DNA from: Erythrobacter sp. YJ-T3-07
GTDB taxonomy: Bacteria; Pseudomonadota; Alphaproteobacteria; Sphingomonadales; Sphingomonadaceae
Direction of reading: 5' to 3'
Length of the DNA stretch: 64,000 nucleotides
Assembly (NCBI RefSeq): GCF_015999305.1
Contig: NZ_JAEAGP010000001.1
Location: 1,302,001 to 1,366,000 of the forward strand
In this document: positions 30,631-56,005 of the stretch, piece after piece
Numbering within the stretch: the stretch's first letter is position 1
Layout: the number at the start of each line of letters is the position of its first letter
The notes under the pieces: generated by a model
What the model saw: the letters and a program-made list of their open reading frames with translations, nothing else
The model's database searches: none
What the model was told of the DNA's origin: nothing
Made by a program: the position numbers and the translations under genes

Positions 30631-30671
30631 GGCAATCCTAAAACACTGAGCGAGTCTGCGCGAGGCGTTTT

Positions 30672-31676
30672 TTAGGCCGCTCGGTCAGTGATCTCACGTA
30701 CGAAGTCAAGTATATGGATGCGAGATAGCTTGCCGTTCTTGTATCGCCGTCTGGCTAAGACTTCTATTCTAGCTCTTTTTTGTGCAGCGAGTGTGTACGC
30801 GTTGCCATCCTCTAGAAATACCGGATCTTTCACTTCGGCCATCAAAAAACCTTCGTCATCGGGGTTTTGAATGCTCAATTCGCTAGTGTGATATTTGAAG
30901 CCATCGGTCACAAAAACTTCTTGTTTTGGTGGCTGCCAATCTACTTTCTGTGAGTCTCGGATTGCTTCGGCATCAGCAAGTCTAATAATATTTGGTGGGG
31001 CTTTGCCGGCGTAGAAGGTCACGGTATCAACCGATTCCCCAACAGGAGCGACGTAGCCTGCTGCTGCCGGTCCGTTCGACGCAATGGACCTTCGCAGCAA
31101 GTCCTGCATGCCCATCGTCTCAGCATGGCGACGTTCATCCAGATCATTCAAAATAGACAGCGAGTCTTTATGCATTTTCGACATCGCCTTCAGGGCGACC
31201 TCGTGCATTTCGGCCATTTTGTTGATCGCCAGATCAACAGATTTCTCGTCGCCGCGAAAATGGTCTAAAACAGCATGGACATAATAACCGACTATGTCAG
31301 GGCCAATAGAGGTCAAAATTGGGACGCCTACGCCGAGCAACTGAGAGGCTTCTTGCAGCAATTGAGGCGCGCCATAAGAGCTCTGCACGCCTTCGCGTGC
31401 CTTCAAGAGTAGAGGTGCTCGTTCTCCTCTCCTGGGCAACCTCTGCAACGATAAGACAATTAGACAATCCGATATCATACGGTCCAACCCTTGTAGGGAC
31501 TGGCCGTAAAGTTTCGCGTCAATGGTATGCTTTATTGCATCGCCGCCATCATACTTCAGCAGAATTTCCGGTTCTAGCATCTGTATCTCCCCCACCTTCT
31601 GGGTTTCTAGCGCTAACCAACGATTTGGTTGAGTCAGAAATGTAGGCAAGGAGGCAATGTCGAAAATATTCGACAT
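30672..31676 (-). CDS. Orphan protein of unknown function, AT-richer than neighbours
   Basis: 334 residues and no family that I can name. Visible points: an N-terminal segment LLKYDGGDAIKHTIDAKLYG, a helical middle (VDLAINKMAEMHEVALKAMS), a glycine/proline linker (SNGPAAAGYVAPVGE) and a basic C-terminal region (AQKRARIEVLARRRYKNGKL). There are no signal peptide or membrane spans. The DNA is visibly richer in A and T than the genes on both sides, with codons such as TTA, AAA and TCA that the neighbours avoid. It sits between ispB and an XRE-controlled operon with no operon partner. These are the marks of an acquired gene, possibly phage-derived or defensive, but no function is supported. Confidence 0.7.
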   Translation of the reverse strand: MSNIFDIASLPTFLTQPNRWLALETQKVGEIQMLEPEILLKYDGGDAIKHTIDAKLYGQSLQGLDRMISDCLIVLSLQRLPRRGERAPLLLKAREGVQSSYGAPQLLQEASQLLGVGVPILTSIGPDIVGYYVHAVLDHFRGDEKSVDLAINKMAEMHEVALKAMSKMHKDSLSILNDLDERRHAETMGMQDLLRRSIASNGPAAAGYVAPVGESVDTVTFYAGKAPPNIIRLADAEAIRDSQKVDWQPPKQEVFVTDGFKYHTSELSIQNPDDEGFLMAEVKDPVFLEDGNAYTLAAQKRARIEVLARRRYKNGKLSRIHILDFVREITDRAA

Positions 31677-31692
31677 CCGCCTCGCGCTCTCC

Positions 31693-31714
31693 TATGTAGA
31701 AAATGTTCTACATA
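31693..31714. promoter_or_regulatory. 22-bp operator palindrome of the small XRE operon
   Basis: TATGTAGAA-AATG-TTCTACATA is a perfect inverted repeat of nine-base arms, 20 bases before the membrane-protein ATG. The small XRE repressor encoded second in the operon is the obvious candidate to bind it. The divergent orphan gene starts 17 bases away and may share the control. Confidence 0.75.
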
Positions 31715-31733
31715 ACGGAGGAGATTCGCGATC

Positions 31734-32138
31734 ATGTCGTTCAGGGAAAAATCCGCGTGGGTCATGGGGGCGATCATGCTCGCGACCGGAGTGTTCTACG
31801 CGCAGCTGGTCGCGGGGGCGCCGCAGGCTCCGGTGATCGGGCCGCTGATCCCCTACGTGCTCGCGGTGGTCGTGCTGTCGGTCGTCGCGCAGATCGGGCT
31901 CGCAATTGCCTCTCCCAGGGAAGCAAACGCCCCGGCGGACGAGCGGGAAAAGATCGTCATCGACCGGGCGGGGCACTGGTCGGGCATGGTGATGGGCGTG
32001 CTGGCGGTTGCCGCCTGCGCGACCTACGTTGCGCTGCCCAGTGGCGGGATGCTGTTCCACCACATCATCGGCGCGCTGATCGTCGCGCAGCTGGCGGAAT
32101 ATGTGTTCCAGATCGTCCTGTTCCGCAGGCCGATCTGA
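31734..32138 (+). CDS. Four-span membrane protein (DUF2178-like)
   Basis: 134 residues with four predicted membrane spans: MGAIMLATGVFYAQLVAG, IGPLIPYVLAVVVLSVVAQI, SGMVMGVLAVAACATYVAL and MLFHHIIGALIVAQLAEYVF. Between spans two and three is the cytoplasmic DEREKIVIDRAGHW segment typical of DUF2178-like proteins encoded with small XRE repressors. The function of such pairs is not settled; stress or membrane-state control has been proposed. A GGAGGAG site precedes the ATG. The XRE gene follows after 26 bases. Confidence 0.72.
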   Translation: MSFREKSAWVMGAIMLATGVFYAQLVAGAPQAPVIGPLIPYVLAVVVLSVVAQIGLAIASPREANAPADEREKIVIDRAGHWSGMVMGVLAVAACATYVALPSGGMLFHHIIGALIVAQLAEYVFQIVLFRRPI

Positions 32139-36140: not shown

Positions 36141-36251
36141 GAGCCAAGTTCGCCATGTGGCGATCGGGAGTCGGGTGGACGTTTGCGTTCGCTCACCGGG
36201 TCAGGTCCGGAAGGAAGCAGCCCAGGTGAATTGCGGCGGGTCGCTCGGCTC
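36141..36251 (+). ncRNA. ffs: Signal recognition particle RNA (small bacterial 4.5S type)
   Basis: The conserved Ffh-binding hairpin is present (GGTCAGGTCCGGAAGGAAGC at 36199-36218, then AGCCC), flanked by complementary arms (CTCACC / GGTGAA). The ends GAGCC (36141) and GGCTC (36247-36251) pair, and CCTTTT follows as a terminator. The RNA guides ribosomes making membrane proteins. The exact ends are approximate. Confidence 0.92.
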
Positions 36252-36257
36252 CTTTTC

Positions 36258-36740
36258 CTATTCTGCCGATGTCTTCATGCGCGAGCGTGCCTCGTTGCGC
36301 GATCCCGTGGCGTCGGTGATCCCTGACACCTTACCGAGGCCCCACGCGGGCATGTTGGCGTAGATCGTTTCGTGACGACCTGCGTCGACCGCATAGGTCT
36401 CGTGGAAAATACCCACTGTCCCGTCGCCGCCCACCGCCTTGTTGAACGCAACCCAGGCCGGCCAGTGCTGCCTGTCGCGCGAACGCGCATAGGCTTCGAG
36501 ACTGTCGAAATCGCGCCAGTATTGCAGCAGGCAGACCTGTCGCGGCCCGGCAAGCATGTTTTGGGAGCCGAGAAATCCGCTGTCCGGGTCTTTCGTCAGT
36601 TCTTCCAGCATTGGAGGCATGGCTCTGAGCACAGGCAGCCACTTGCCGACCTTGTGGAAGTGGTTGATCCGCATCCCGATGACGAAAACCACCAGCGGAC
36701 CACTGAATTGGGCAGTCTTGCGCCCTGCGATGATGCTCAT
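36258..36740 (-). CDS. DUF4188 family protein
   Basis: 160 residues. The pattern VVFVIGMRINHFHKVGKWLP, then DSGFLGSQNMLAGPRQVCLL and QYWRDFDSLEAYARSRDRQH, is that of DUF4188, a ferredoxin-like (dimeric alpha-beta barrel) family with a putative haem or monooxygenase role. IFHETYAV matches the family end. Its stop lies only a few bases from the SRP RNA terminator on the opposite strand. The gene has an inverted repeat in its promoter. Confidence 0.85.
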   Translation of the reverse strand: MSIIAGRKTAQFSGPLVVFVIGMRINHFHKVGKWLPVLRAMPPMLEELTKDPDSGFLGSQNMLAGPRQVCLLQYWRDFDSLEAYARSRDRQHWPAWVAFNKAVGGDGTVGIFHETYAVDAGRHETIYANMPAWGLGKVSGITDATGSRNEARSRMKTSAE

Positions 36741-43034: not shown

Positions 43035-43120
43035 GGACAGGTGGCCGAGTGGTTAAAGGCAGCAGACTGTAAATCTGCCCGCGCAAGCGTACGCTGGTTC
43101 GAATCCAGCCCTGTCCACCA
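43035..43120 (+). tRNA. tRNA-Tyr (anticodon GTA)
   Basis: 86 bases with encoded CCA. The acceptor stem GGACAGG / CCTGTCC is perfect, the anticodon loop is CTGTAAA, a long variable arm (CCGCGCAAGCGTACGC) marks a type II tRNA, and the T arm is TGGTTCGAATCCA. No repeat of its 3' end is seen nearby. Confidence 0.95.
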
Positions 43121-43169: not shown

Positions 43170-44318
43170 TCAGACCGCTCCGGACGCGCCCCACCGTTCG
43201 AGCGCTTCGTGCAGGCTTTCCTGCCCGACCCTGTCGGCAGGCTGGCGCGTGTGCGACCGGCCGAATCGCGGGGCAGGGAGAGGCTGGAAGGACGTTTCGG
43301 TCGAATGGAACGAGGTGCGGCCACCCGTGGCCTTCGCTGCGGCGGCCTCTTCGAGCGAGAGGACAGGCGTCACGCAGGCATCCCTTTTCGAGAACTCGGC
43401 ATCCCATTCCTGCAGACTGCGCGTCGCCACGATGGGCGCGATCGCCTCTGCGCGGGCGTCCCAGTGGCGCGGATTGAGGTGATCGGCGTAATCGCCCGGC
43501 TCGAGGCCCAGGCCGGCGATGAAGGCATCGTGAAACGGCTTTTCCAGCGCGCCGACCGCGATGTGGCGGCGGTCAGCGGTTTCGTAGCAGCGATAGAAAT
43601 AGGCGCTCCCGTCGAGCAGGTTGCCACCGCGGCCCCGGGTCCAGCGATCCATCTGCATCCAGCCCGCCAGCTGCGTCATCAGCACGCTGATCCCGTCGAC
43701 CATCGCGACATCGATCACCTGGCCCTTGCCCGACCGATTGCGCTCCTGCAGCGCTGAGAGCACGCCCATGGCCAGAAACGTGCCGCCCCCGCCGAAATTA
43801 CCGACGAAGTTCAGCGGCGGCACAGGCGGCCCGTCGAAAGGCCCGATCGGGTAGAGCCCGCCGCTCATCGCGAGATAGTTGATGTCGTGTCCGGCCCGGT
43901 TGGCGAGGGGGCCTTCCTGGCCCCAGCCGCTCATCCGTGCGTAGATCAGCCGCTCGTTGCGGGGGCAGATATCCTCAGGACCTATGCCCAGCCGTTCCAT
44001 CGTGCCGGGGCGAAAGCCCTCGATCAGCACGTCGGCCTTGTCCGCCAGTTCAATGATACGCTGCTTCCCGTCGGGCGATTTCAGATCGATCGGGAGGACA
44101 GGACGCCCGCGATAGATGAAGTCGAACTCCGGCGATCCGCCCAGGGGGCTGGCTGCATCCTCCCGATCGATCCGAATCAGGTCCGCGCCCAGGTCGGCAA
44201 GCAGCATCGCACCGAACGGGGTCGGGCCCAGACCGGAGATTTCGAGTATCCTCATTCCGGCCAGCGGCATGTCCCGCTCGTGCCCGGTCGCCTCGGTATT
44301 CCCCTGATCGTCTCCCAT
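43170..44318 (-). CDS. CaiB/BaiF family CoA-transferase or racemase
   Basis: 382 residues, type III CoA-transferase superfamily (CaiB, alpha-methylacyl-CoA racemase). Motifs: GMRILEISGLGPTPFGAMLL, ADLGADLIRIDR, the RGRPVLPIDLKSPDGK segment, and Asp145 in RAGHDINYLAMSG (the catalytic Asp position). The racemase-like length suggests an alpha-methylacyl-CoA racemase or a CoA carrier. AGGAGAGG lies before the ATG. It is divergent from the Fe-ADH-family gene, with a TACTAGCCAGTA site between them, which places it in the TetR-controlled block. It could move CoA onto the pathway acid or epimerise an alpha-methyl group. Confidence 0.88.
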   Translation of the reverse strand: MGDDQGNTEATGHERDMPLAGMRILEISGLGPTPFGAMLLADLGADLIRIDREDAASPLGGSPEFDFIYRGRPVLPIDLKSPDGKQRIIELADKADVLIEGFRPGTMERLGIGPEDICPRNERLIYARMSGWGQEGPLANRAGHDINYLAMSGGLYPIGPFDGPPVPPLNFVGNFGGGGTFLAMGVLSALQERNRSGKGQVIDVAMVDGISVLMTQLAGWMQMDRWTRGRGGNLLDGSAYFYRCYETADRRHIAVGALEKPFHDAFIAGLGLEPGDYADHLNPRHWDARAEAIAPIVATRSLQEWDAEFSKRDACVTPVLSLEEAAAAKATGGRTSFHSTETSFQPLPAPRFGRSHTRQPADRVGQESLHEALERWGASGAV

Positions 44319-44355
44319 GGCGCCTCTCCTTTATATTCCCGTGAGTTGAAAAATC

Positions 44356-44367
44356 TACTAGCCAGTA
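44356..44367. promoter_or_regulatory. TetR-type operator site 1 (TACTAGCCAGTA)
   Basis: One base from the perfect palindrome TACTGGCCAGTA found beside the tetR gene. It lies 38-49 bases before the CoA-transferase start and 73-84 bases before the reductase start, in the divergent promoter region. Confidence 0.65.
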
Positions 44368-44439
44368 AGGCGATTGCCTGTCACTATCCAACAGCACGAT
44401 CCGCAAGAAATGCGGACGCCATGGGAAAGAGGAACTGAG

Positions 44440-45618
44440 ATGGCACACGTAACCCCGAGCGAGCTGCGCTTTACCCGGACCGAAAGGGTCACGATGGGCA
44501 TGCCTGCGGCCGATGCGCTGGTCGATCAGGCGCAGGCGATGGACTGCAAGAAGGTCTTCCTCATCGCGTCGACCACCTTGCGCGAGGATACGGACGAGAT
44601 TGCGAAGATCGAGCTGGCTCTGGGTTCGCGCCACGGCGGGACTTTCAGCGGTATCGCGCCTCACGCGCCCCGCGCCGATGTGCTGGCGGCGACCAATGCG
44701 GCGCGCGATGCAGGTGCCGACCTGATCGTCTCGATCGGCGGCGGTTCTGCCACCGATGCTGCAAAGATCGTCAGCCTGATGATCAAGCACGACGTGCGGA
44801 CCGTCGAGGATTTCGAGCCGCTGCGCACCTACGTCACCGATGACGGGCAGGTCATCAATCCGATCACCGTCGGACCCGACATTCCCGTCATCTGCGTGCC
44901 GACCACGCTTTCAGGTGGCGAGTTCAACGCGCTGTCCGGATCGACCGACGAGGTGACCCAGCACAAGCAGGGTTACGAGCATCGCAACATGGCCCCGGTG
45001 ATGGTGGTGCTCGATCCCGCGATCACCGTCCACACGCCCGCATGGCTGTGGCTTTCGACCGGCGTGCGCTCGGTCGACCATGCGATCGAAACCCTCTCTT
45101 CCGATAAGTCGAACGATTTTGCCGATGGGCTTGCCGAAAGCGCGCTCAAGCTGCTGGTCGAGGGTCTGCCCCGTGTGAAGGCCGACCCGAACGATCTCGA
45201 AGGCCGGCTCAAGTGCCAGATCGGCGCGTGGCAATCGATGATCAGCATCATCGGCGGCGTGCCCATGGGGGCGAGCCATGCGATCGGCCATATCCTGGGC
45301 GGCACCTGCGACGTTCCCCACGGGCACTGTTCGTGCGTCATGGCGCCCTACGTGCTTCAGTGGAACGCCGAGTACGACGACAGCCGCCAGCAGCGCACCC
45401 TCGCGGTGCTCGGCAACACGCATCCCACTGCGGCGGAAGCGCTCGACGCGTTCATCCGCAACCTCGGCATGCCGCGAACGCTCGGCGAGGTCGGCGTGGA
45501 CGAATCGCGCTTCCAGCAGGTCGCCGAATACACGCTGCTCGATATCTGGGGGCGGACCAACCCGCGTCCGGTGAAGAGCGCCGACGACATCATGCAGATT
45601 CTCCGTCTGGCAGCCTGA
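44440..45618 (+). CDS. Iron-containing alcohol dehydrogenase family reductase, Asp ligand replaced
   Basis: 392 residues. It has the NAD(P)-binding SIGGGSATDAAKIVSLMIK and the C-terminal helical metal domain. Compared with FucO (Asp196, His200, His263, His277), the three His are present with identical spacing (His214, His280, His294), but the Asp position is Arg210 (GVRSVDHAIE). Maleylacetate reductases, in the same superfamily, also lack this Asp, and HILGGTCDVPHGHCSCV resembles them. It may therefore act without iron. The GAGGAA site supports ATG 44440. It starts the plus-strand operon with the ligase and the monooxygenase. Confidence 0.87.
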   Translation: MAHVTPSELRFTRTERVTMGMPAADALVDQAQAMDCKKVFLIASTTLREDTDEIAKIELALGSRHGGTFSGIAPHAPRADVLAATNAARDAGADLIVSIGGGSATDAAKIVSLMIKHDVRTVEDFEPLRTYVTDDGQVINPITVGPDIPVICVPTTLSGGEFNALSGSTDEVTQHKQGYEHRNMAPVMVVLDPAITVHTPAWLWLSTGVRSVDHAIETLSSDKSNDFADGLAESALKLLVEGLPRVKADPNDLEGRLKCQIGAWQSMISIIGGVPMGASHAIGHILGGTCDVPHGHCSCVMAPYVLQWNAEYDDSRQQRTLAVLGNTHPTAAEALDAFIRNLGMPRTLGEVGVDESRFQQVAEYTLLDIWGRTNPRPVKSADDIMQILRLAA

Positions 45619-45628
45619 GGGGCGAGCA

Positions 45629-47254
45629 ATGTCACGAGAACGCGATTTCGCGGACCCGCGCATTCCCAATCGTGACGAGTGCGTCCTTCGCTACCTGCTC
45701 GATCGATGGGCGGTCGAGCGGACCGACAAGGCGCACATCGTCTTCGCCGATGGTGAGGAATGGACCTTCGGAGAGCTTCAAAGGAAGGTTCGCGCCAAGG
45801 CAGCAGGCTTTCGCGAACTGGGCGTGCAGCAGGGCGAGCATGTCGCCGTGTGGCTCCCCAACGGGCGCGATGCAATCGTCACCTTCTATGCCCTGAACTA
45901 CCTCGGCGCGGTCTTCGTGCCCTTCAACACGGCCTATCGCGGGCAGTTGCTGGAGCATGTCGTCGCCAATTCCGGCGCGCGCTTCATGGTGGTGCATCCC
46001 GATCTCCTCCCGCGCCTGGCGGGCATGGGTCTGGCGCAGCTGGAACGGCTGGTGGTGACGACCGATCGCAGCGTGGACGGCGCGCCGCTGCCGGTCACGG
46101 CGTATGACGACCTGCTCGGCGATCCGGCGGACGAACTGCCGCTCGAACGCCCGATCCAGCCGTGGGATATCCAGTCGATCATCTACACCTCGGGCACCAC
46201 GGGCCCGTCCAAGGGTGTGCTCTCCTCCTACCTGCACATGTTTTCCAACGCGGGGCCCGAATCTTGGCCCATGGTGGGCGAGGATGATCGCTATCTGTGC
46301 GTCGCGCCGATCTTCCACATCGGCGGCATGGGCCCGCCCTTCGTGATGCTGGCGCGTGGCGCGTCGGTCGCGATGATCGACAATTTCTCGACCGACGAGT
46401 TCTGGTCGATCGCGAAGGCGACCAAGTCGACCATGGTCTTCCTGCTCGGTGTCATGGCGACCTTCCTGCTGAAGGCGGACCCTCGGCCGGGCGACAAGGA
46501 CCACACGGTCAAGAAGGCCTTCATGGTGCCGCTGACCGGCGACGCCGCCGCCTTTACCGAGCGGTTCGGCGTGGACATCTACACGATCTTCAACATGACC
46601 GAGGTATCCTCGCCGATCGTGTCCGAGGCCAACCCGGACAAGATCGGTACCTGCGGCAAGGTCCGCGACGGGGTCGAGGTCCGGCTGGTCGATGCCAATG
46701 ACTGCGAGGTCGCGGTCGGCGAGATCGGTGAAATGCTGGTCCGCACCGATCGCCCCTGGGCGATGAACAGCGGCTACAACGCCAATCCCGAAGCGACTGC
46801 CGAGGCGTGGCGCAACGGCTGGTTCCATACCGGCGACGCCTTCCGTCAGGACGAGGATGGCTATTTCTACTTCGTCGACCGGGTGAAGGATGCGATCCGG
46901 CGACGGGGCGAGAATATCTCGTCCTTCGAAGTCGAAGCCGACGTCTGCCGCCACCCTTGCGTGCGCGAGGCCGCCGCGATCGCCGTGCCGAGCGAATATT
47001 CCGAAGACGAGGTCATGGTGATCGTCGCCCCGGTTCCCGGACGCGAGATCGACCCGCGCGAGCTGGCCGAGTTCCTGATCGACGCGATGCCCTACTTCAT
47101 GGTGCCGCGATATATCCGCCTGCTCGACGAACTGCCCAAGACCCCCTCTGCCAAGGTGATGAAGGCCGAACTGAGGGCCGAAGGCGTCACCCATGACACC
47201 TGGGACCGCGAAGCGGCGGGCATGCGGGTTCGGCGCGAGAGCTTCAGCGCGTGA
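45629..47254 (+). CDS. Acyl-CoA synthetase, AMP-forming (CaiC/FadD-like)
   Basis: 541 residues. It activates a carboxylic acid with ATP and CoA. The P-loop is IIYTSGTTGPSKGV (from residue 184), then FNMTEVSSPI, the hinge region YFVDRVKDAIRRRGENISSF, and the catalytic-Lys region KTPSAKVMKAELR near the C-terminus. It starts ten bases after the reductase stop and is followed by the Baeyer-Villiger enzyme. In this setting it would activate the acid released by ester or lactone cleavage. The chain or ring preference is unknown. Confidence 0.92.
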   Translation: MSRERDFADPRIPNRDECVLRYLLDRWAVERTDKAHIVFADGEEWTFGELQRKVRAKAAGFRELGVQQGEHVAVWLPNGRDAIVTFYALNYLGAVFVPFNTAYRGQLLEHVVANSGARFMVVHPDLLPRLAGMGLAQLERLVVTTDRSVDGAPLPVTAYDDLLGDPADELPLERPIQPWDIQSIIYTSGTTGPSKGVLSSYLHMFSNAGPESWPMVGEDDRYLCVAPIFHIGGMGPPFVMLARGASVAMIDNFSTDEFWSIAKATKSTMVFLLGVMATFLLKADPRPGDKDHTVKKAFMVPLTGDAAAFTERFGVDIYTIFNMTEVSSPIVSEANPDKIGTCGKVRDGVEVRLVDANDCEVAVGEIGEMLVRTDRPWAMNSGYNANPEATAEAWRNGWFHTGDAFRQDEDGYFYFVDRVKDAIRRRGENISSFEVEADVCRHPCVREAAAIAVPSEYSEDEVMVIVAPVPGREIDPRELAEFLIDAMPYFMVPRYIRLLDELPKTPSAKVMKAELRAEGVTHDTWDREAAGMRVRRESFSA

Positions 47255-47309
47255 CCTTTTCCGACCTTTTCCTTGCGGCAGGCCCGGCCTGCCCGAACGC
47301 TGCAGGACA

Positions 47310-49274
47310 ATGCATTCGATGAGCAATCCCTTCGCAACCCCTCCGATCCCTGCCGACGAGGTCGATCGCGATCTGCTGGATGATGGCATCGCGCGGGGCA
47401 ACATCCCGGCCCTGCTGATGGTGCTGTACCAGATGACCGGCGATGATCGCTGGCTGGCGGACCCTTACGCGCCGGGGCGGTCTCCCGGGCTTGACGACAA
47501 TGACAGCGGGCAGCTGCCCGTCGCCCGCCAGAACGAGATCCGCGAGGCGGCTCGCGATGCGATCACCGCGTGGCTCGACGGTCGGCCACTCGCGGTTCCC
47601 CGGCCCAGCAACGCGCGTCTTGCCGAGATGCTGACGGTCGCGATGACCGAACATGTGCCGCAGGAATATGGCGATATCATCGCGTCGGGCATGGATTACG
47701 GCGCTGAAGAACCTGCCCAAGGTATCCTACCCGAGGGCAAGAGCGCGATCGTGATCGGCGGCGGCGTCTCGGGAATCTGCGCCGGGATCGAGCTTGGCAG
47801 GCTTGGCATTCCCTACACCCTGTTCGAAAAGAACGAGGATTTCGGCGGCACCTGGTTCGAGAACCGCTATCCCGGATGCGGCGTCGACACGCCCTCGCTC
47901 ACCTACACCTTTTCGTGCCGGCCCAACGACTGGTCGATGTACTTCCCGCTGCGCGACGAGATCGAGGGGTACCTGCTCGATACGGCCAAGCACTTCGAGC
48001 TCTACAAGAACGCGCGGTTCAACACCTATGTCGAGGAAGCGCGCTGGAACGAGGGCACCGGCAAGTGGGATGTCACCATCACCACCGCCGATGGCAAGCG
48101 CGAGACGCACAGCGCGGATTATCTGTTCAGCGCGGTGGGGATTCTCAACATCCCCAAATACCCGAACATTCCCGGGCTCGAAGAGTTCGCGGGCGATGTC
48201 TACCACACCAGCCGCTGGCCCGATGATGCACAGGTCGCGGGCAAGCGGGTCGCGGTGGTCGGTAATGGCGCGTCAGGCATGCAGGTCGCTCCAGCGATCG
48301 CCGACCAGGTGCAAAGCCTGACGATCTTCGCCCGGTCCAAGCAATGGGCCGCGCCGTTCCCGCAGTTCCGCAAGACCATCCCGGCAGGCGTGCGCTATCT
48401 GATGCAGGTCGTGCCACTCTATCGCGCATGGCTGGAACAGCGCTTGTCCTGGACCTTCAACGATCGGGTTCACGGCACGCTGTTCCGCGATCCCGACTTC
48501 GAGCACCCGGAACGGGCGGTCAACGAGGTCAACGACGGCCATCGCCGCGCCTTCACCCGTTATGTGAAGGAACAGCTGGAGGACCGGCCCGAACTGATCG
48601 AGCACGTCCTGCCAGACTATCCACCTTTCGCGAAGCGCATGCTGCTGGACAATGGCTGGTACCGCACGATCAAGCGCGACAACGTGACCCTGATCCCCGA
48701 ACATCTCGCGAAGGTGGAAGGGCACACGCTGCACTCCTCGTCCGGCAAGACGGTAGAGGCGGATGTCATCATCCTCGCGACCGGCTTCCAGACGACCAAT
48801 GTGCTCGGCTCCTATGGCATCTATGGCCGGGACGGGGAAAACCTGCACGACAAGTGGGGCGAGGACGATGCGGCCGCCTATCTCGGCACGCTGGTGCCGG
48901 GATTCCCCAATTTCTTCATCCTGCTGGGCCCCAATGTCGGCTCGGGCCATGGCGGCAGCATGATCCGCAATATCGAGAACCAGATGCACTTCGCAGGCGA
49001 GGTCGTCCTCTCGGCGAACAAGCACGGCGCGCGAACGGTCGAGGTGCGCGACAAGGTCTACGAAGACTACCTGCGCCGGATCGACGAAGCGCATGAAAAG
49101 CTGGTCTGGACCCATCCGGGAACGGAGAACTGGTATCGCAATTCCAAGGGCCGGGTTATCGCCATCACCCCATGGCGCAACGACGCCTTCTGGCGGATGA
49201 CCCGCTCACCGGACGAGAGCGACCTCGCCTTCGACGGCGCGGCGCAGACGTCGCCACGCTCCGCCACCGGCTGA
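47310..49274 (+). CDS. Type I Baeyer-Villiger monooxygenase (HAPMO-like)
   Basis: About 654 residues, an FAD- and NADPH-dependent enzyme that inserts oxygen next to a ketone to give an ester or lactone. The FAD-binding Rossmann motif is IGGGVSGICAGIELG, the type I fingerprint F-x-G-x-x-x-H-x-x-x-W-P is present as FAGDVYHTSRWP (near residue 293), and the NADPH-binding motif is VVGNGASGMQVAP. A ~140-residue N-terminal extension resembles the 4-hydroxyacetophenone monooxygenase group. The two start candidates (ATG 47310, 47319) both have only a weak AGGA site. Its frame overlaps the ligase end and the gene is in the same operon. It is the key enzyme of the cluster. Confidence 0.9.
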   Translation: MHSMSNPFATPPIPADEVDRDLLDDGIARGNIPALLMVLYQMTGDDRWLADPYAPGRSPGLDDNDSGQLPVARQNEIREAARDAITAWLDGRPLAVPRPSNARLAEMLTVAMTEHVPQEYGDIIASGMDYGAEEPAQGILPEGKSAIVIGGGVSGICAGIELGRLGIPYTLFEKNEDFGGTWFENRYPGCGVDTPSLTYTFSCRPNDWSMYFPLRDEIEGYLLDTAKHFELYKNARFNTYVEEARWNEGTGKWDVTITTADGKRETHSADYLFSAVGILNIPKYPNIPGLEEFAGDVYHTSRWPDDAQVAGKRVAVVGNGASGMQVAPAIADQVQSLTIFARSKQWAAPFPQFRKTIPAGVRYLMQVVPLYRAWLEQRLSWTFNDRVHGTLFRDPDFEHPERAVNEVNDGHRRAFTRYVKEQLEDRPELIEHVLPDYPPFAKRMLLDNGWYRTIKRDNVTLIPEHLAKVEGHTLHSSSGKTVEADVIILATGFQTTNVLGSYGIYGRDGENLHDKWGEDDAAAYLGTLVPGFPNFFILLGPNVGSGHGGSMIRNIENQMHFAGEVVLSANKHGARTVEVRDKVYEDYLRRIDEAHEKLVWTHPGTENWYRNSKGRVIAITPWRNDAFWRMTRSPDESDLAFDGAAQTSPRSATG

Positions 49275-49428
49275 ATAGCGGTGGCGGTCTAGCGGGGGAG
49301 GGTGGCCGGCGAATCTGCGCCCGCTGCCCCGGGCGGTCGCGCGTGGCGGGCTGCTGCCCCGGAAGTCCGCAGGGAAAAGATCAAGCGCATCGTTTTCGCG
49401 CCTCGCGGCAAACGCGCTCGCGTGGGAA

Positions 49429-50313
49429 TCAGCGGTAGATGGGCCTGAACCCATCACCATCGCGTTCCACGAAGACCGAGTGAGGCGCGCCGAAATGCGC
49501 AGGCACAATGCGGGCATGCTGGTCCGCGGCCTGCTCCAGCACCTTGCGTCTGGTGGCGGCTGCCGTGGCGCGGTCTTCACAATAGACGCTGTTCCAGTCG
49601 GGCCGGAGGATCTGCATCGGGTGGTGGAGAATATCTCCGGTGAACAGCGCCACATCCCCGTCCGCTTCTACCTGCAGGACCATGTGGCCAGGCGTATGGC
49701 CGGGCGAATCGAACGCGGTCATCCCCTCTGCAATCGAGTGACCGCTCTCGATGAGCCGGGCCTGTCCGCTTGCGATGACGGGTGCCACGCTGTCTTCGAA
49801 GACGTTGGCGTTGACCGCCGCTCCGCCGAGCGATGGGTAGATCTCCTTGTCCGGATTCCACGCCTGCTCGTCGAGGTTCGGGAAGAAATAGAGCGCGTCG
49901 GGGAAGGTCGGCTTCCATTCACCGTCGACCCGCTGCGTATTCCAGCCCACGTGATCGATATGGAGATGCGTGCAGAAGACCTTGTCGATGTCTTCCGGCG
50001 CAAATCCCGCCTCGCCCAGACGCGTCAGAAAGTCGCTTTCCAGGTTGCCGAAGATGGGAATACCGGGGCGGGACTTGCCGTTGCCCGCCCCGGTATCGAC
50101 CAGCACCGTCTCTTCGCCGGTGTCGATCAGCCAGCTCTGGAGATAGCCGTAGATCAGGCCGTCGCGCAGAAAGTCTGGCTCGAACTCGCTCGCATGGCCG
50201 CCGAAGGCCGAGGCTTCGTATTCGGCGAAGAGGGCTTCGGGAGGGGCGAACCCGCCCTGCCATTCCTCGATCCGATGGACCTTGTGCGATCCGATACGAA
50301 ATTCCCCGGCCAT
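49429..50313 (-). CDS. Metallo-beta-lactamase-fold hydrolase
   Basis: 294 residues. The metal site THLHIDHVGW (His116, His118, Asp120, His121) and DSPGHTPGHMVLQVE, FTGDILHHP and ARIVPAHFG complete a two-zinc centre, as in lactonases of the AHL-lactonase group and related esterases. It starts 16 bases after the TonB receptor stop on the minus strand and is in its operon. In a Baeyer-Villiger pathway it is the natural candidate to open the lactone or ester formed by the monooxygenase; that is inference. No signal peptide is evident, so it should act in the cytoplasm. The start at 50313 fits the family. Confidence 0.88.
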   Translation of the reverse strand: MAGEFRIGSHKVHRIEEWQGGFAPPEALFAEYEASAFGGHASEFEPDFLRDGLIYGYLQSWLIDTGEETVLVDTGAGNGKSRPGIPIFGNLESDFLTRLGEAGFAPEDIDKVFCTHLHIDHVGWNTQRVDGEWKPTFPDALYFFPNLDEQAWNPDKEIYPSLGGAAVNANVFEDSVAPVIASGQARLIESGHSIAEGMTAFDSPGHTPGHMVLQVEADGDVALFTGDILHHPMQILRPDWNSVYCEDRATAAATRRKVLEQAADQHARIVPAHFGAPHSVFVERDGDGFRPIYR

Positions 50314-50329
50314 GGCGTGCACCCCAACT

Positions 50330-52627
50330 CTATAAGTCGTAGCCGAGCGTGATCCCGTAGGTCCGCGGAGGACGCAGCGAGCCGACCGACACGTAGCTGT
50401 AGAGGGGCGAGGCGATGATGGTGTTGGCCAGCACCTCCTCGTCGAACAGGTTCTTCCCCCAGACCGAGGCGGACCACCGGTTGCCCGAGGCGCGGTAGGT
50501 GATGCTGGCATTCGCGATCGCGAAGGCTTCCTGCCGGGCATCCTGGTTGTTGAACTCGGTGAAGAAGACCTCGTCCTGGAAGTTCACGTCCGCCGAGAGA
50601 TCGATCGTTGCGCCATTGCCCAGCTCGATCGTGTGATCGGCAAAGGCGGCAACGGTGATCGCCGGCGCATTGGCCAGCTTGTTGCCCGAAAGGTCGGACA
50701 GGGCCGGATCGGTCGGGCAGGTGGGAAACTGTCGGCGTGCCGGATCGCCCGCTGCGTAGTAACCGTTGCAGAAGTCGGTGTACTTGGCATTCAGATAGGT
50801 GCCGAAGATACGGAATGTGGTGTTGGGCCCGGGCCGCAGGGTCGTCTCGATCTCGATCCCGTAGTTGCGGGCCGAAGCTGCGTTGATCGTTTCAACAATG
50901 CTGTTGGCGTTGACGAAGCCGACCTGCAGGTTGGAATAATCGTAGTAGAAGCCCGCCACGCTGTAGCCGAAGGTGCGATCGATGGTTTCGCCCCGCACCC
51001 CGATTTCGTAGCTCCACACATCCTCCGGATCGATCACGGAATTGACCGATCCGATGTTCACCACACCCGATTTGAAGCCCTTGGTGACCTTGCCGTAGAG
51101 CAGGGTGCCGCCCGGCGTTTCGTATTCGAGCACGAACTTGGGCGTGATCGCATCCCAGTCGCCGGTCTTGTCCGTCGGGATGTCGATACCCTGCGCATCG
51201 AAGGTGAAGCGACCGACGCCCGAGCGTTCTTCCCAGTTATAGCGCGCGCCTGCGGTGAAGGTGAGGCTGGGCGTGATCTCCAGCGACCCTTCGAGATAGG
51301 CGCCCACCGCAGTGGTATCCACGGTTCCGCGCTGGAGGTAGTTGCCGTTGTCGAAGGCGTCGGCAGGCAGGTTGGTGCCCAGCGCAATGTTGAAATACTG
51401 CGCGAGGTTGACCGTCGGCACGCGGACTTCGCCGAACAGCGTTTCTTCGAAATACATCGCACCGCCGAGCAGCGAGAGGCTGCCCAGGTCGGCGGTGAAG
51501 GTCAGCTCCTGACTGAAGGATTCGCTGTCTTCTGTGTAGTTGTTCTGGCCGAAAGCGTTGACATCGCTCACGTCCAGGTCGTCGCGATTGAAACGCTCGA
51601 ACTTGCGGTAGGCGGTGGTGGAGGTGAGGGTGAAGTCGCCCTTGTCGAGGGTGACGATGCCCTGCACGCTGGTGCCCTTGCGATCATTGATCGCGTCCTC
51701 GTCCGAATAGATGTTGCGGACATCGGTCGGCTCGCCGCGCGCGGCATAATAGTCGTTGATCGTCTGCCCGCCGAGCAGCGACGAGGCGATCTGGTCTTCC
51801 GGCACCACGGTGGGGCCGAAATAATGGAAGGCGTAGTTGAAGTCGTCTTCCCGGAAATGGTCCGCCACGATGAGCACTTCGAGATCGGGGCTCAGGTTGG
51901 CGAGCAGCGATCCACGGATGGAGTAGGCGTCGCGGTTGTCGACCGGATTGCCGGTGAACAGGTTGACGCCGTAGCCGTCGCGGTTCTCGTACTTGCCTGC
52001 GACCCGGAAGGCCAGCGTGTCGCCGACGATCGGCCCGCCGACCGCGCCTTCCAGAGTGATCGCATCGTAGTTGCCGTAGGTTGCGCGCGCGTAGCCTTCG
52101 AAAGTTGAGGTCGGCCTGGCAGTGACCAGGTTGATGACCCCGCCGGTCGCACCGCGCCCGTAGGTGGTGCCCTGCGGGCCACGCAGAACTTCGATCTGTT
52201 CGAGGTCGTAGAATCCGCTCAACTGTGCGGCGGGACGGCTGATGAGGGCTCCGTTCTGGAGGAAAGCGACCGCGCCATCGGCACCCAGATCGATACTGGT
52301 CAGGCCGATCCCGCGGATGAAGGTGCGGTTGACCCCGAACTGGTCGCCGACCGACAGGTTGGGGACGGCGATGGACAGGTCGCTCGCATTCTCGATCCCG
52401 CCCGCGCCGATATCCTCGGCGCTCACGACCGAAATGGCGGCCGCCGTATCTTCAAGCGACTGGCCCGACTTGGTGGCTGTCACCACGATGGTCGCTGAAT
52501 CCTCGACTTCGCGCTTCGTCTCGCTGTCTTCCGGCGCACCGGCGGTCTGCGCCGAGGCTTGGGTGGCGCCCGCGATTGCGGCCACCGCAGCAGCCGACAT
52601 GAGCGCGCATTTGATGCTCTTTTTCAT
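50330..52627 (-). CDS. TonB-dependent receptor of the catabolic cluster
   Basis: 765 residues. A signal peptide (MKKSIKCALMSAAAVAAIAG, cleaved after ASA) is followed by the TonB-box-like SATIVVTATKSGQ, the plug (AAAISVVSAEDIGAGGIENA, then IEVLRGPQGTTYGRGATGG) and the barrel, ending TYGITLGYDL. It probably brings a bulky hydrophobic substrate through the outer membrane. The ATG at 52627 has GGGAG eight bases upstream and is preferred over GTG 52642. A TetR-type operator lies 37-48 bases before it, and the hydrolase gene follows in the same operon. Confidence 0.92.
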   Translation of the reverse strand: MKKSIKCALMSAAAVAAIAGATQASAQTAGAPEDSETKREVEDSATIVVTATKSGQSLEDTAAAISVVSAEDIGAGGIENASDLSIAVPNLSVGDQFGVNRTFIRGIGLTSIDLGADGAVAFLQNGALISRPAAQLSGFYDLEQIEVLRGPQGTTYGRGATGGVINLVTARPTSTFEGYARATYGNYDAITLEGAVGGPIVGDTLAFRVAGKYENRDGYGVNLFTGNPVDNRDAYSIRGSLLANLSPDLEVLIVADHFREDDFNYAFHYFGPTVVPEDQIASSLLGGQTINDYYAARGEPTDVRNIYSDEDAINDRKGTSVQGIVTLDKGDFTLTSTTAYRKFERFNRDDLDVSDVNAFGQNNYTEDSESFSQELTFTADLGSLSLLGGAMYFEETLFGEVRVPTVNLAQYFNIALGTNLPADAFDNGNYLQRGTVDTTAVGAYLEGSLEITPSLTFTAGARYNWEERSGVGRFTFDAQGIDIPTDKTGDWDAITPKFVLEYETPGGTLLYGKVTKGFKSGVVNIGSVNSVIDPEDVWSYEIGVRGETIDRTFGYSVAGFYYDYSNLQVGFVNANSIVETINAASARNYGIEIETTLRPGPNTTFRIFGTYLNAKYTDFCNGYYAAGDPARRQFPTCPTDPALSDLSGNKLANAPAITVAAFADHTIELGNGATIDLSADVNFQDEVFFTEFNNQDARQEAFAIANASITYRASGNRWSASVWGKNLFDEEVLANTIIASPLYSYVSVGSLRPPRTYGITLGYDL

Positions 52628-52663
52628 CGCTTTCTCTCCCACTCTACCAGCCCTATAATTTTC

Positions 52664-52675
52664 TACTGGCTGGTA
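52664..52675. promoter_or_regulatory. TetR-type operator site 2 (TACTGGCTGGTA)
   Basis: The left half-site is perfect and the right half differs by two bases. It lies in the TonB receptor promoter. It also ends a longer inverted repeat with arms TACCAGCC (52645-52652) and GGCTGGTA (52668-52675). Confidence 0.6.
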
Positions 52676-52725
52676 TTTTCAGTTAAAACTCAACGGATGC
52701 GTGTCCGCTTTTTCCCGTCATCGGA

Positions 52726-53367
52726 TTACTCGGCGCCCGCCAGCCGAAGGGCCGCCGTCACCAGTTGATCGATTACTTCTTCGGAGGACCGCTGGCCGCC
52801 CGGCGAATACCAGGTTGGAATCCAGCTGATCAGACCGCCGATCCAGACCGCGACGAAGGAATCGGTGTCTTCCCTGAATTCGCCCGCTTCCACGCCTTCG
52901 CGGATCAGTTCGGCGATCTGATGGTCGAAAGACGCCCTCATCCGCAGGATCCGGTTGTGATCGGTGGCACTGAGGTGCTTCATTTCGCGCTGGTAGACGA
53001 CGACATATTCCTGTCGCTCGATCACGATCCGGCCAACCTGCCGCACGACTTCGGTCAGCAGGGCGCGATGGGTCTTGTGCTCGTCTGCCAGCGTGGCTTC
53101 CAGCACGGCCAGCGACTCGCTGATGCCCACCTCGCAGATCGCGGCGAGGATCGCTTCCTTGTTCTTGAAGTAGGAATACAGGAACGGCTTGGTGACGCCC
53201 AGATTGTCCGCGACAAGGTCGAGCGTGCAGCTGCTGTAGCCGCGCTGGTAGAACAGGTTGCTGGCGACTTCGATGATGCGATTGGTCTTGAAGGCGACGA
53301 ATTCGCTTTTCAGCGAGTCGTTCGCCCCGGCAGACGCGTCGCGAGCGTTTGTGGCTATCGATGACAT
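52726..53367 (-). CDS. TetR/AcrR-family regulator of the catabolic cluster
   Basis: 213 residues. The N-terminal HTH is at about residues 27-70 (RIIEVASNLFYQRGYSS, CTLDLVADNLGVTKPFLYSY, FKNKEAILAAICE). The C-terminal ligand domain is all helical (QEYVVVYQREMKHLSATDHN and FVAVWIGGLISWIPTWYSPG). It is divergent from the alpha-hydroxyacid oxidase, and a perfect TACTGGCCAGTA palindrome lies between them, with variants in the promoters of the other genes. It is therefore very likely the repressor of the whole block, relieved by a pathway CoA ester or acid. Confidence 0.92.
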   Translation of the reverse strand: MSSIATNARDASAGANDSLKSEFVAFKTNRIIEVASNLFYQRGYSSCTLDLVADNLGVTKPFLYSYFKNKEAILAAICEVGISESLAVLEATLADEHKTHRALLTEVVRQVGRIVIERQEYVVVYQREMKHLSATDHNRILRMRASFDHQIAELIREGVEAGEFREDTDSFVAVWIGGLISWIPTWYSPGGQRSSEEVIDQLVTAALRLAGAE

Positions 53368-53464
53368 AGCCGCTCCATCGCCGATCCAGGGCGTTCAGGC
53401 AATTCGGTCTCTCCGTTGGTGGATGTATCTCCACCTTGGAGCACGTGATGCCAAATAACCGTCG

Positions 53465-53476
53465 TACTGGCCAGTA
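53465..53476. promoter_or_regulatory. TetR-type operator site 3, perfect palindrome TACTGGCCAGTA
   Basis: A perfect 12-base palindrome in the divergent tetR/oxidase region, about 98 bases from the tetR start and 91 bases from the oxidase start. A T run follows it. It is the best copy of the three and probably the autoregulatory site. Confidence 0.72.
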
Positions 53477-53566
53477 GTTTTTTCTGACTCTTGGTAACAG
53501 GGTGCTGCTGCTCTAGGCTGCGCGGAGGCAAAAGACCTTAAAAACATGCGGAGCGGAGAACCTGGA

Positions 53567-54745
53567 ATGCCCCACTACGGAGATATGCAGAACGCGATCT
53601 ACAATGCAGGGCTGAGCGGGATTCAGCCAGACTATCCGGTCGATTTCGCCACTCTGGAAGCGCGTGCGGAGAAGGCCCTGTCGCCGTCCATGCGCAATTA
53701 TATCCAGGGCGGGTGCGGGGACGAGCACACGCAGGATCGCAATGCGGATGCATTCCACAATTGGGGGATGGTGCCGCGCATGCTGGTGGACTGCACGCAG
53801 CGCGATCTGTCGATCGATCTGTTCGGGATGCGTCTTCCCTCGCCGGTGTTCATGGCGCCGATCGGCGTCAACGGAGAGGCGACGCAGGATCGCAAGGGCG
53901 ATCTGGCGGCGGCGCGCGCTTCGGCTGAAACGGGCGTTCCTTTCTGCGCCTCCACGCTTTCCAACACGCCGCTCGAAGAGGTGGCGCGCGCAGCGGGGGA
54001 TACGCCGGGCTTGTTCCAGCTTTACACGCCCAAGAACGAGGATCTGACCCAGAGCCTGATATCCCGGGCGCAGAAGGCGGGCTATCGTGCGCTGGTCGTC
54101 ACGCTGGACACCTGGGTGACCGGGTGGCGCCCGCGCGATCTCAACACCGCCAATTTCCCTCAATTGCGCGGCAAGGTGCTGGAAAACTACTTCAGCGACC
54201 CGGTGTTCAGGGGTCTGCTGGAGCGGCCGCCGGAAGAGGATCTGCCCGCCGCCGTGGCCAAGTGGGCTGCGACGTTCGGCAAGGTGCTGACGTGGGACGA
54301 TATCGCCCGCTTCAGGGAAATGACCGACATGCCGATCGTCCTCAAGGGCATCTGCCACGGCGAGGATGCACGCAAGGCGGCGGATCACGGGGTCGATGCG
54401 ATCTACTGCTCCAACCATGGCGGCAGGCAGGCCAATGGCGGGATTGCCGCGATCGACATGCTTCCCGCAGTGGTAGAGGGGGCGGGGAAGACGCCTGTGC
54501 TGTTCGACAGCGGCATCCGCTCCGGCAGCGATGTGATCAAGGCGATCGCGCTGGGCGCGACGGCGGTCGGGATTGGGCGCCCTTATACCTATGGGCTGGC
54601 GATCGGCGGCACGGCTGGCGCGGCGCACGTGCTGCGCTCGATTTTGGCGGAGGCCGATCTCCTGATGGCGGTGAACGGTTATCCCGATCTGGACGCGGTG
54701 CGGGAGGCGGGCGCCTACCGCATGCCGCCGCTCACGCTTCCCTGA
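53567..54745 (+). CDS. FMN-dependent alpha-hydroxyacid oxidase or dehydrogenase
   Basis: 392 residues, (beta-alpha)8-barrel of the lactate/glycolate oxidase family. The signature YCSNHGGRQANGG carries the catalytic His284, with FMN-binding FMAPIGVNGEATQDRKGDL, VVTLDTWVTGWRPRDLN and FDSGIRSGSDVIKAIALGA. It oxidises an L-2-hydroxyacid to a 2-ketoacid with FMN. The start at 53567 has GGAG about eight bases upstream; ATG 53546 has none. The first gene of a plus-strand pair with the KAS III-like gene, 114 bases before it. It may handle a hydroxyacid released from the ester. Confidence 0.9.
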   Translation: MPHYGDMQNAIYNAGLSGIQPDYPVDFATLEARAEKALSPSMRNYIQGGCGDEHTQDRNADAFHNWGMVPRMLVDCTQRDLSIDLFGMRLPSPVFMAPIGVNGEATQDRKGDLAAARASAETGVPFCASTLSNTPLEEVARAAGDTPGLFQLYTPKNEDLTQSLISRAQKAGYRALVVTLDTWVTGWRPRDLNTANFPQLRGKVLENYFSDPVFRGLLERPPEEDLPAAVAKWAATFGKVLTWDDIARFREMTDMPIVLKGICHGEDARKAADHGVDAIYCSNHGGRQANGGIAAIDMLPAVVEGAGKTPVLFDSGIRSGSDVIKAIALGATAVGIGRPYTYGLAIGGTAGAAHVLRSILAEADLLMAVNGYPDLDAVREAGAYRMPPLTLP

Positions 54746-54859
54746 GAGGCGGGGAATGGGGCGCCTGCCGGAAGCAGAGCTGCAAACGCCCCGGATATCC
54801 ATCGTCACGGTGGATGCGGCTTGCCGCATTTCGCCCACGTCGCTACTCCTCGGCACCCA

Positions 54860-56005
54860 ATGAACGCGCATAACAATACCGGGGCCGCACGGCCGGTCAT
54901 CTCCGCCACCGGGCTCTTCACGCCCGAGGACAGCATCAGCAACGCCGAACTGGTCGAGAGCTTCAATGCCTTCGTCGACCGGCACAATGCCGCACATGCG
55001 GACGCCATCGCGGCGGGTGAGGTGGAGCCGCTGGTCCACAGTTCGGTCGAATTCATCGAGAAGGCGAGCGGGATCAAGGCTCGCCACGTCATCAACAAGG
55101 CGCCGCTGATCGATCCCGACATCATGGAGCCGCGCCACGAGCCGCGCGGCAATGACGATATGTCGATGATGGCCGAAATCGGCGTTGCCGCCGCGCGCGA
55201 TGCGCTGGCGCGGGCAGGGCGCGATGCCGCCGACGTCGACGCGGTGCTGTGCGCCGCGTCCAACATGCAGCGGCCCTATCCCGCGATGGCGATCGAGATC
55301 CAGCAGGCGCTGGGGATCGACGGCTTTGCATTCGACATGAACGTCGCGTGCTCGTCCGCCACTTTCGGCATCCAGACCGCAGCCGATTATATCCGCGCGG
55401 GCAATGCGAAGAGCGTGCTGGTGGTCAGCCCCGAAATCACCAGCGGGCACCTCAACTGGCGCGACCGTGACAGCCACTTCATCTTCGGCGATGTCGCCAC
55501 TGCCGTGCTGGTGGAAGACGCTTCCATCGCGCCGGTGGAACACTGGGACATTCTGGGGACGCGGCTGAAGACCGTGTTCTCCAACAACATCCGCAACAAT
55601 TTCGGTTTCCTCAACCGCGCGGAGCCGGAGACGATCGGCACGCCGGACAAACTGTTCGTTCAGGAAGGGCGCAAGGTCTTCAAGGAAGTGGTGCCGATGG
55701 TCGCGCAGATGATCGTCGACGAGGCCGATCGGCTGTCGCTCGATCCCGCTGCGCTGCGTCGCCTGTGGCTGCACCAGGCCAATGCCGGCATGAACCGGCT
55801 GATCGCGCAGCGCGTGCTGGGCCACGAGGCGAGCGAGGACGAGAGCCCGACCGTGCTCGACACATACGGCAATACCTCCAGCGCAGGCTCGATCATCGCG
55901 TTCCACCTCAACAATTCCGATCTGGTGGCAGGCGACACGGGGCTGATCTGCAGCTTTGGGGCGGGATATTCGGCGGGCACGGTGTTCGTGCGCAAGGTGG
56001 CGTGA
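54860..56005 (+). CDS. KAS III-like condensing enzyme
   Basis: 381 residues of the thiolase fold, most like 3-oxoacyl-ACP synthase III. The catalytic residues are visible: Cys164 (NVACSSATFG), His305 (LHQANAGMN) and Asn338 (TYGNTSSAGS). It is longer than the 320-residue FabH, with an extra N-terminal segment (TGLFTPEDSISNAELVESFN). This longer form is used for nonstandard condensations or for acyl-CoA chemistry in catabolic clusters. Here it could condense or thiolyse pathway acyl-CoA. Its role is uncertain. It ends the block; psd follows on the same strand after 42 bases. Confidence 0.85.
   Translation: MNAHNNTGAARPVISATGLFTPEDSISNAELVESFNAFVDRHNAAHADAIAAGEVEPLVHSSVEFIEKASGIKARHVINKAPLIDPDIMEPRHEPRGNDDMSMMAEIGVAAARDALARAGRDAADVDAVLCAASNMQRPYPAMAIEIQQALGIDGFAFDMNVACSSATFGIQTAADYIRAGNAKSVLVVSPEITSGHLNWRDRDSHFIFGDVATAVLVEDASIAPVEHWDILGTRLKTVFSNNIRNNFGFLNRAEPETIGTPDKLFVQEGRKVFKEVVPMVAQMIVDEADRLSLDPAALRRLWLHQANAGMNRLIAQRVLGHEASEDESPTVLDTYGNTSSAGSIIAFHLNNSDLVAGDTGLICSFGAGYSAGTVFVRKVA

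Follow-up and report, generated by a model that had tools for sequence, protein, structure and literature searches.

A stretch of 64,000 nucleotides from Erythrobacter sp. YJ-T3-07 (contig NZ_JAEAGP010000001.1, positions 1,302,001 to 1,366,000; hereafter the window), whose genome measures 3.3 Mb, carries a cluster of eight genes centred on a type I Baeyer–Villiger monooxygenase (BVMO). Judging from the sequence, the cluster is probably a mobile regulon for breaking down a hydrophobic ketone or a precursor that is oxidised to one beforehand. Besides the BVMO, its members are a racemase-like protein, a reductase of the iron alcohol dehydrogenase (Fe-ADH) superfamily, an AMP-forming acyl-CoA ligase, a metallo-beta-lactamase-fold (MBL) hydrolase, a TonB-dependent receptor, a TetR-family regulator and an FMN-dependent 2-hydroxy-acid enzyme. 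A first-pass annotation had already described a BVMO-centred group of genes equipped with a TetR of its own, an importer, a hydrolase and an enzyme for CoA activation, and that description is borne out here. Gene families, neighbourhoods, a palindrome, an insertion at tRNA-Tyr and altered residues were computed; repression by TetR, the inducer, the order of steps, each reaction and the substrate are what we infer.

Gene families were assigned by comparison with Pfam, NCBIfam and the sequences of the Protein Data Bank (PDB). Strand and spacing predict five units: the racemase-like gene (43170..44318, minus strand); the Fe-ADH, ligase and BVMO genes (44440..45618, 45629..47254 and 47310..49274, all plus strand); the TonB receptor and MBL genes (50330..52642 and 49429..50313, minus strand); the TetR gene (52726..53367, minus strand); and the FMN enzyme gene (53546..54745, plus strand). 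The ligase and the receptor were recognized by their family matches. Alteriqipengyuania abyssalis (Erythrobacteraceae, Sphingomonadales; L033) has the same locus, with proteins 96–99% identical to those of the window. Some gene starts required a choice. For the Fe-ADH, whose open reading frame (ORF) runs from 44374, the ATG at 44440 is more likely than the TTG at 44374 because a GAGGAAC stretch precedes that ATG; most relatives align over 0.93–0.96 of the ORF and some over its full length. The BVMO probably starts at 47310, inside the ORF 47193–49274, and the MBL gene starts at 50313, not at 50541. The 213-residue TetR is the ORF with a TetR_N match (52726–53367), and a longer overlapping ORF (52718–53434) matches no family.

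The central enzyme is classed as a type I BVMO by its fingerprints and is predicted to use NADPH and O2 to make an ester or lactone from a ketone. The fingerprint FxGxxxHxxxW(P/D) reads FAGDVYHTSRWP in the window and is present in 13/13 cluster members (16/19 aligned sequences overall), while the second fingerprint, (A/G)GxWxxxx(F/Y)P(G/M)xxxD, reads GGTWFENRYPGCGVD and is present in 12/13 cluster members (missing in L051) and 18/19 aligned sequences. Both GxGxx(G/A) motifs are there too, as GxGxxG at residues 150 and 318. The protein carries about 140 extra N-terminal residues. Among the best 60 of 64 PDB rows, the best-matching stretch begins at residue 179 at least of the 693-residue ORF, and no solved structure covered the extension. 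A structure model of the protein (mean pLDDT 59) was too poor for use.

Evidence that these genes belong together comes from their recurrence. In an evenly drawn sample of 296 Sphingomonadales genomes, a match to the BVMO family (E <= 1e-60) was found in 60, with at least 50% identity in 11. The first-pass annotation had raised the prospect of the genes being scattered in relatives; instead, the core genes stand beside the BVMO in 11/11 of these genomes. At these 11 loci (the window, L037, L038 and L044–L051) the Fe-ADH, ligase, TetR, TonB receptor and racemase-like genes are always present, and they are joined by the MBL gene in 10 (not L051), a cytochrome P450 gene in 7, the FMN enzyme gene in 6 and a KAS III gene in 1 (the window). 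A broader set of 20 loci also takes in L033, L035, L036, L039–L043 and L115, the last on a Novosphingobium plasmid. Excluded from its counts were L034, a contig of 3.9 kb with BVMO and MBL genes only, and a zinc-dehydrogenase match of L035 (41%, about 3 kb beyond the cluster). Because the loci were selected via their BVMO, only the counts of the remaining genes inform: ligase, Fe-ADH, TetR and TonB receptor, 20 each; racemase-like protein, 19; MBL, 18. More variable are the P450 (13), a zinc-dehydrogenase/quinone-oxidoreductase-like gene (12), the FMN enzyme (11) and KAS III (2, the window and its near twin L033); the P450 and the zinc-dehydrogenase/quinone-oxidoreductase-like gene are both missing from the window's cluster. 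The stretches measured about 20–26 kb and several clusters touch an edge, so that absences are provisional. Twenty loci sharing the set exclude a chance neighbourhood. Pairwise distances of six of the genes also track those of the BVMO (r 0.73–0.91 over 17–19 loci; 0/2000 permutations each). Parts do reshuffle, as the rearranged L042 indicates, where the BVMO is 77% identical and the TetR only 44%.

Loci with more distant BVMOs were compared as well. Ten loci with a BVMO at 45% or less (L052–L061) gave no Fe-ADH, racemase-like, TetR or MBL match, and the full set was not seen around the BVMOs of Tistrella, Cupriavidus, Rhodococcus and Rhizobium plasmids. Across the phylum, 12/398 genomes gave an Fe-ADH match at E <= 1e-80, and only in the window's genome and in that of L038 did it exceed 50% identity. 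A BVMO match at E <= 1e-60 was found in 166 of 72,556 plasmid records and passed 60% identity in one. In another alphaproteobacterial genus, Fe-ADH relatives at 40–47% pair with an FMN enzyme or an MBL, and one further genome (L133) pairs such a relative with a racemase-like protein. These pairings are suggestive, although the stretches fetched around them showed no BVMO match. Some partial neighbourhoods deserve mention. In the alphaproteobacterial loci L130 and L131, Fe-ADH relatives (42–43%) lie near FMN enzyme relatives (62–65%) and alpha/beta hydrolase genes, followed in L130 by ketopantoate-reductase-like and periplasmic binding-protein genes. On the plasmid pTM2 of Tistrella mobilis (L116) a BVMO (57%) adjoins a ligase (61%), with a serine-hydrolase gene beside them and without other cluster genes. 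A plasmid of Rhodococcus opacus DSM 44186 (L120) lines up genes for an adenylate-forming enzyme, a BVMO with 47–48% identity to that of the window, an SDR and a CaiB/BaiF protein; the last is 45% identical to the racemase-like protein, in the Asp form discussed below, and the group may be a Gram-positive cousin of the pathway.

The first-pass annotation spoke of a regulon, a term now backed by a palindrome common to three promoter regions. The motif, TACTGGCCAGTA, was first spotted by reading the window's intergenic regions. Allowing up to 2 mismatches, it occurs at three sites in the 64 kb (44356, 52664 and 53465) against 0.39 expected, and 0/100 shuffles held three. These putative operators lie between the racemase-like and Fe-ADH genes (TACTAGCCAGTA, 44356..44367), upstream of the TonB receptor gene (TACTGGCTGGTA, 52664..52675) and between the TetR and FMN enzyme genes (the palindrome itself, 53465..53476). 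The three regions were compared across 13 loci with a close TetR (the window, L033, L035–L041 and L043–L046), with the 250 bases ahead of the TetR gene standing in at loci that gave no FMN gene. The racemase-like/Fe-ADH region holds the palindrome at no more than 1 mismatch in 13/13 loci, and the TonB/TetR and TetR/FMN regions hold it at no more than 2 mismatches in 8/13 each. This amounts to 29/39 regions, the other ten having three mismatches at best, and there was a single match in the remaining 268,142 positions of these loci. By comparison, the best of 179 other palindromes built from the same half-site letters reached 3/39. Near more distant TetRs (44–55%) there were 9 intergenic matches, in 5/6 loci (not L047). 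Sharing of one palindrome by all three promoter regions supports a regulon under one repressor, with TetR as the protein that would bind the palindrome.

The cluster is accessory and has moved. It starts just past the 3' end of a tRNA-Tyr (GTA) gene (43035..43120, plus strand), and identity to a cluster-free congener (L122) stops three bases past this tRNA. Within the genus the BVMO is present in 2/10 genomes (the window's and its near twin), and KAS III in 10/10. Of the 8 congeners that have no BVMO, 6 carry rlmB, tRNA-Tyr, KAS III and psd in this order and have none of the cluster's genes among them; the stretch fetched from the remaining two holds no tRNA. In the window, no repeat of the tRNA-Tyr 3' end was found at the far side of the cluster. 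Erythrobacter sp. AP23 (L036) has the cluster near tRNA-Tyr in reversed orientation, with a tyrosine-recombinase (phage integrase) gene between (L036:19807–21312). The full set, with the P450 and a quinone-oxidoreductase-like gene, is also carried by plasmid pABRDHK22 of Novosphingobium sp. EMRT-2 (L115; NZ_CP039697.1, 319832–345754), where it directly adjoins a catechol ortho-cleavage operon. Movement was probably by tRNA-targeted integration in some lineages. Past the set of L115, and likewise in L047, lie Rieske-type oxygenase, aspartate/glutamate racemase-family and AraC genes.

The same comparison trims the gene list. All nine genes named in the first-pass annotation are present in the window and eight are members of the cluster, while the ninth, KAS III (54821/54866–56005), follows tRNA-Tyr directly in cluster-free relatives and was rejected as a member: it is part of the neighbouring rlmB/tRNA-Tyr/KAS III/psd locus. 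Outside the genus, tRNA-Tyr stands beside KAS III in 6/24 loci (turned round in L085), and the 1.5 kb flanks of these 24 loci hold no cluster gene except TonB-type matches at 26–32%. Elsewhere in the window, the G+C content falls to 57.8% at 30001–32000, against 61.7–71.6% in the remaining 2 kb steps (a possible acquired stretch), and a bacterial small SRP RNA lies at 36164–36258 (Rfam RF00169, 52.2 bits).

How would such a regulon work? Without substrate, TetR would sit on three operators of the TACTGGCCAGTA type and hold down all units, including its own. The inducer that binds TetR could be the substrate, but a CoA thioester derived from it is more likely. We suggest an acyl-CoA because Mce3R, KstR2 and a fatty-acid regulator, all with acyl-CoA-type ligands, are among the named PDB relatives of TetR. 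The TonB receptor would then be produced and bring in the compound through the outer membrane. The BVMO would put an oxygen beside the ketone carbon, giving an ester or lactone, which the MBL would hydrolyse to yield either a hydroxy acid or an acid together with an alcohol. The Fe-ADH-like reductase may handle an intermediate of the oxo, alcohol or enone type. The ligase would form an acyl-CoA, the racemase-like protein would work on a branched (2-methyl type) acyl-CoA, and the FMN enzyme may oxidise, perhaps decarboxylate, a 2-hydroxy-acid fragment. In most relatives the P450 probably hydroxylates the substrate first. The host genome has three P450 genes outside the cluster, rejected as orthologs (two match the relatives' P450 at 29–30%, the third has no match above the filter), and therefore the host probably begins from a more oxidised compound.

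The MBL has the metal motif HxHxDH (HLHIDH in the window; H116, H118, D120 and H121 invariant in 12 rows) within domain PF00753. It falls near an ancestral lactonase/dihydrocoumarin hydrolase and methyl parathion hydrolases and is related to acyl-homoserine lactone (AHL) lactonases; a structure model (mean pLDDT 68.5) pointed only to the same general surroundings, lactonases and methyl parathion hydrolases. The FMN enzyme is closest in sequence to lactate 2-monooxygenase (E 3e-139 in the PDB; next group, L-lactate oxidase, 2e-94), and its motifs include a Tyr, Arg, Lys, His and Arg that are presumably the active-site residues; its reaction is perhaps decarboxylation of a 2-hydroxy acid, in place of the release of a keto acid and peroxide. 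The first gene of the cluster had been called a CoA-transferase, a name that the PDB comparison does not support as the default: within the CoA-transferase III fold, alpha-methylacyl-CoA racemases match at E 4e-101 and the best chain named as a CoA-transferase at 6e-33. No NCBIfam model reached its cut-off for this protein. The nearest PDB chain of the Fe-ADH is MAR1 (E 3e-41), followed by maleylacetate reductases and alcohol dehydrogenases (4e-39 to 1e-32).

Several observations weigh against a single ketone regulon. The pathway varies between loci, for of the 20 only 11 have the FMN enzyme and 13 the P450. His126 and Asp156 are the catalytic pair of alpha-methylacyl-CoA racemase (MCR). The His position is His in 18/18 aligned rows, the window included, but the Asp position is Asn in 15/18, again including the window (Asp in L048, L050 and L051). 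With the catalytic Asp exchanged for Asn, racemisation is doubtful, and for this reason we call the protein racemase-like and not a racemase. In Fe-ADHs an Asp ahead of the His ligand binds the metal; this position is Arg in 19/19 aligned rows, and among PDB relatives it is Arg in MAR1 (9ph0), Asn in 3jzd and 3w5s, and Asp in 8zrl. As both residues are lost, the reactions assigned to these two enzymes are guesses. The operator has its own difficulties. Genome-wide, at no more than 1 mismatch, the palindrome occurs at 3 places, of which the cluster holds two, and a control pattern with the letters reversed is just as frequent. The loci with distant TetRs hold 6 in-gene matches as well and are thus weak evidence. 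Moreover, the motif was discovered in the window before the relatives were compared, and these relatives are not independent. What speaks for the operator is where the motif lies and that it is conserved, and not that it is rare genome-wide. The third of the genome-wide places, a perfect palindrome at position 2998576 of contig 1, was rejected as a promoter site: it sits between the 3' ends of convergent DUF4136 and dUTPase genes.

Within the ketone regulon, two substrate classes can be compared. The substrate might be a methyl-branched isoprenoid or terpenoid ketone, made by a P450 and a dehydrogenase, turned by the BVMO into a lactone or ester that the MBL opens, with the ligase and the racemase-like protein readying a branched acyl-CoA for beta-oxidation. 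The kinship of the racemase-like protein to a family acting on 2-methylacyl-CoA, the P450 in most loci and the resemblance of the P450–BVMO–ligase logic to camphor degradation speak for this; the Asn at the Asp156 position and the lack of any terpenoid-specific gene in the set speak against it, and we regard it as possible but doubtful. An aryl ketone appears somewhat less probable still. Here a BVMO like 4-hydroxyacetophenone monooxygenase (HAPMO) would yield an aryl ester, the MBL would be an arylesterase or a dihydrocoumarin-type lactonase, and the maleylacetate-reductase-like enzyme would serve a ring-cleavage branch encoded elsewhere. The N-terminal extension of the BVMO is shared with HAPMO, although the available part of the same source also describes such extensions in type II flavin monooxygenases (PMC10028610). 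The nearest relatives of the MBL and of the Fe-ADH favour this reading, as does the catechol operon beside the cluster on L115; yet the cluster holds no ring-cleavage gene, and the Fe-ADH is distant from true maleylacetate reductases (PDB E 3e-41 to 3e-30). The first-pass annotation had argued from the absence of a ring-cleaving dioxygenase to the class of substrate. That argument carries little weight: genes for ring cleavage could lie in another part of the genome, and one plasmid does have the ortho-cleavage operon next to the cluster. Geosmin, suggested by geosmin-degrading Sphingopyxis strains in the available part of PMC10353388, was considered as a substrate and set aside, as no genetic link was found.

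Two further explanations would dispense with the ketone pathway altogether. The genes might form a detoxification or loose metabolic island whose members merely travel together, as the accessory and mobile character of the cluster and the varying optional members could indicate. We find this improbable: the core stays together at 20 loci in several gene orders, gene distances are correlated, all units share one putative operator, and an importer and a CoA ligase are present. Even less probable is that a lactone is the real substrate, in a quorum-quenching or lactone-use system like qsd, with the BVMO on a side branch. The MBL is indeed kin to AHL lactonases, and qsd, in the available part of its description, holds a TetR, a lactonase and a ligase, but its QsdA is phosphotriesterase-like and not an MBL (PMC6262395). 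In addition, an AidB-type AHL lactonase was rejected for the window's MBL, which scored 82.6 bits against a cut-off of 360 (NCBIfam NF047979); the MBL is absent from 2/20 loci that keep the BVMO, ligase and Fe-ADH; and the BVMO and the TonB receptor would be left unexplained. Returning to the ketone regulon, we propose only tentatively a more specific form: a branched-ketone pathway in which the MBL would open the ester or lactone made by the BVMO, the Asn-form racemase-fold protein would carry out a non-racemising step and the FMN enzyme would remove a 2-hydroxy-acid fragment, the whole spreading via tRNA-targeted islands and plasmids under one TetR.

The natural substrates of BVMOs are mostly unknown, according to the available part of PMC4498894. 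In this cluster the BVMO comes with an importer, a hydrolase, CoA activation, a repressor and a defined candidate operator, so that its substrate could be searched for with a reporter and not by guesswork. A racemase-fold protein whose active site has changed is a second point of interest, and the cluster is a catabolic gene set seen moving via a tRNA-Tyr site and a plasmid.

Among the matches listed, which covered open-licence papers, we found no published description of this gene set. Taken together, the cluster resembles known BVMO pathways (progesterone, bisphenol F, camphor); with the first two, both from sphingomonads, it has the logic of ketone to ester to hydrolysis in common, and not the genes. 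In the pdc progesterone cluster of Caenibius tardaugens a type I BVMO likewise makes an ester from a ketone and adjoins a TetR gene; in contrast, its four genes, as given in the available part of the source, are the BVMO, a luciferase-like monooxygenase, TetR and LuxR, and a ligase, MBL, TonB receptor, Fe-ADH, racemase-like or FMN gene does not feature in that description (PMC12239570). No luciferase-like or LuxR gene is found among the window's cluster genes. The bpf bisphenol F cluster of Sphingobium yanoikuyae DN12 shares oxidation to a ketone, Baeyer–Villiger insertion and ester hydrolysis, but in the portion of the source at hand it begins with a pair like p-cresol methylhydroxylase (PCMH), uses an alpha/beta-fold hydrolase and yields an aromatic acid and hydroquinone (PMC12724174). 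The window's cluster genes include neither a PCMH-like pair nor an alpha/beta hydrolase. The qsd quorum-quenching operon of Rhodococcus erythropolis has a TetR repressor, a lactonase and an acyl-CoA ligase in common with the window; it differs, as far as the excerpted description goes, in having no BVMO, a phosphotriesterase-like lactonase in place of an MBL and, being Gram-positive, no TonB receptor (PMC6262395). HAPMO, likened here by description only, is a type I BVMO with an N-terminal extension, as is the window's, in the available part of its source (PMC10028610). Also compared by description only, pathways of the camphor and cyclohexanone type share the P450 (of most relatives), the BVMO and the ligase with the cluster, and differ from the window's combination of MBL, racemase-like, maleylacetate-reductase-like and lactate-2-monooxygenase-like enzymes with a TonB receptor and a TetR. 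Those pathways proceed by P450 hydroxylation to a ketone, formation of a lactone by a BVMO, opening and CoA activation, the order of events that we would expect of this regulon in the relatives that carry the P450.

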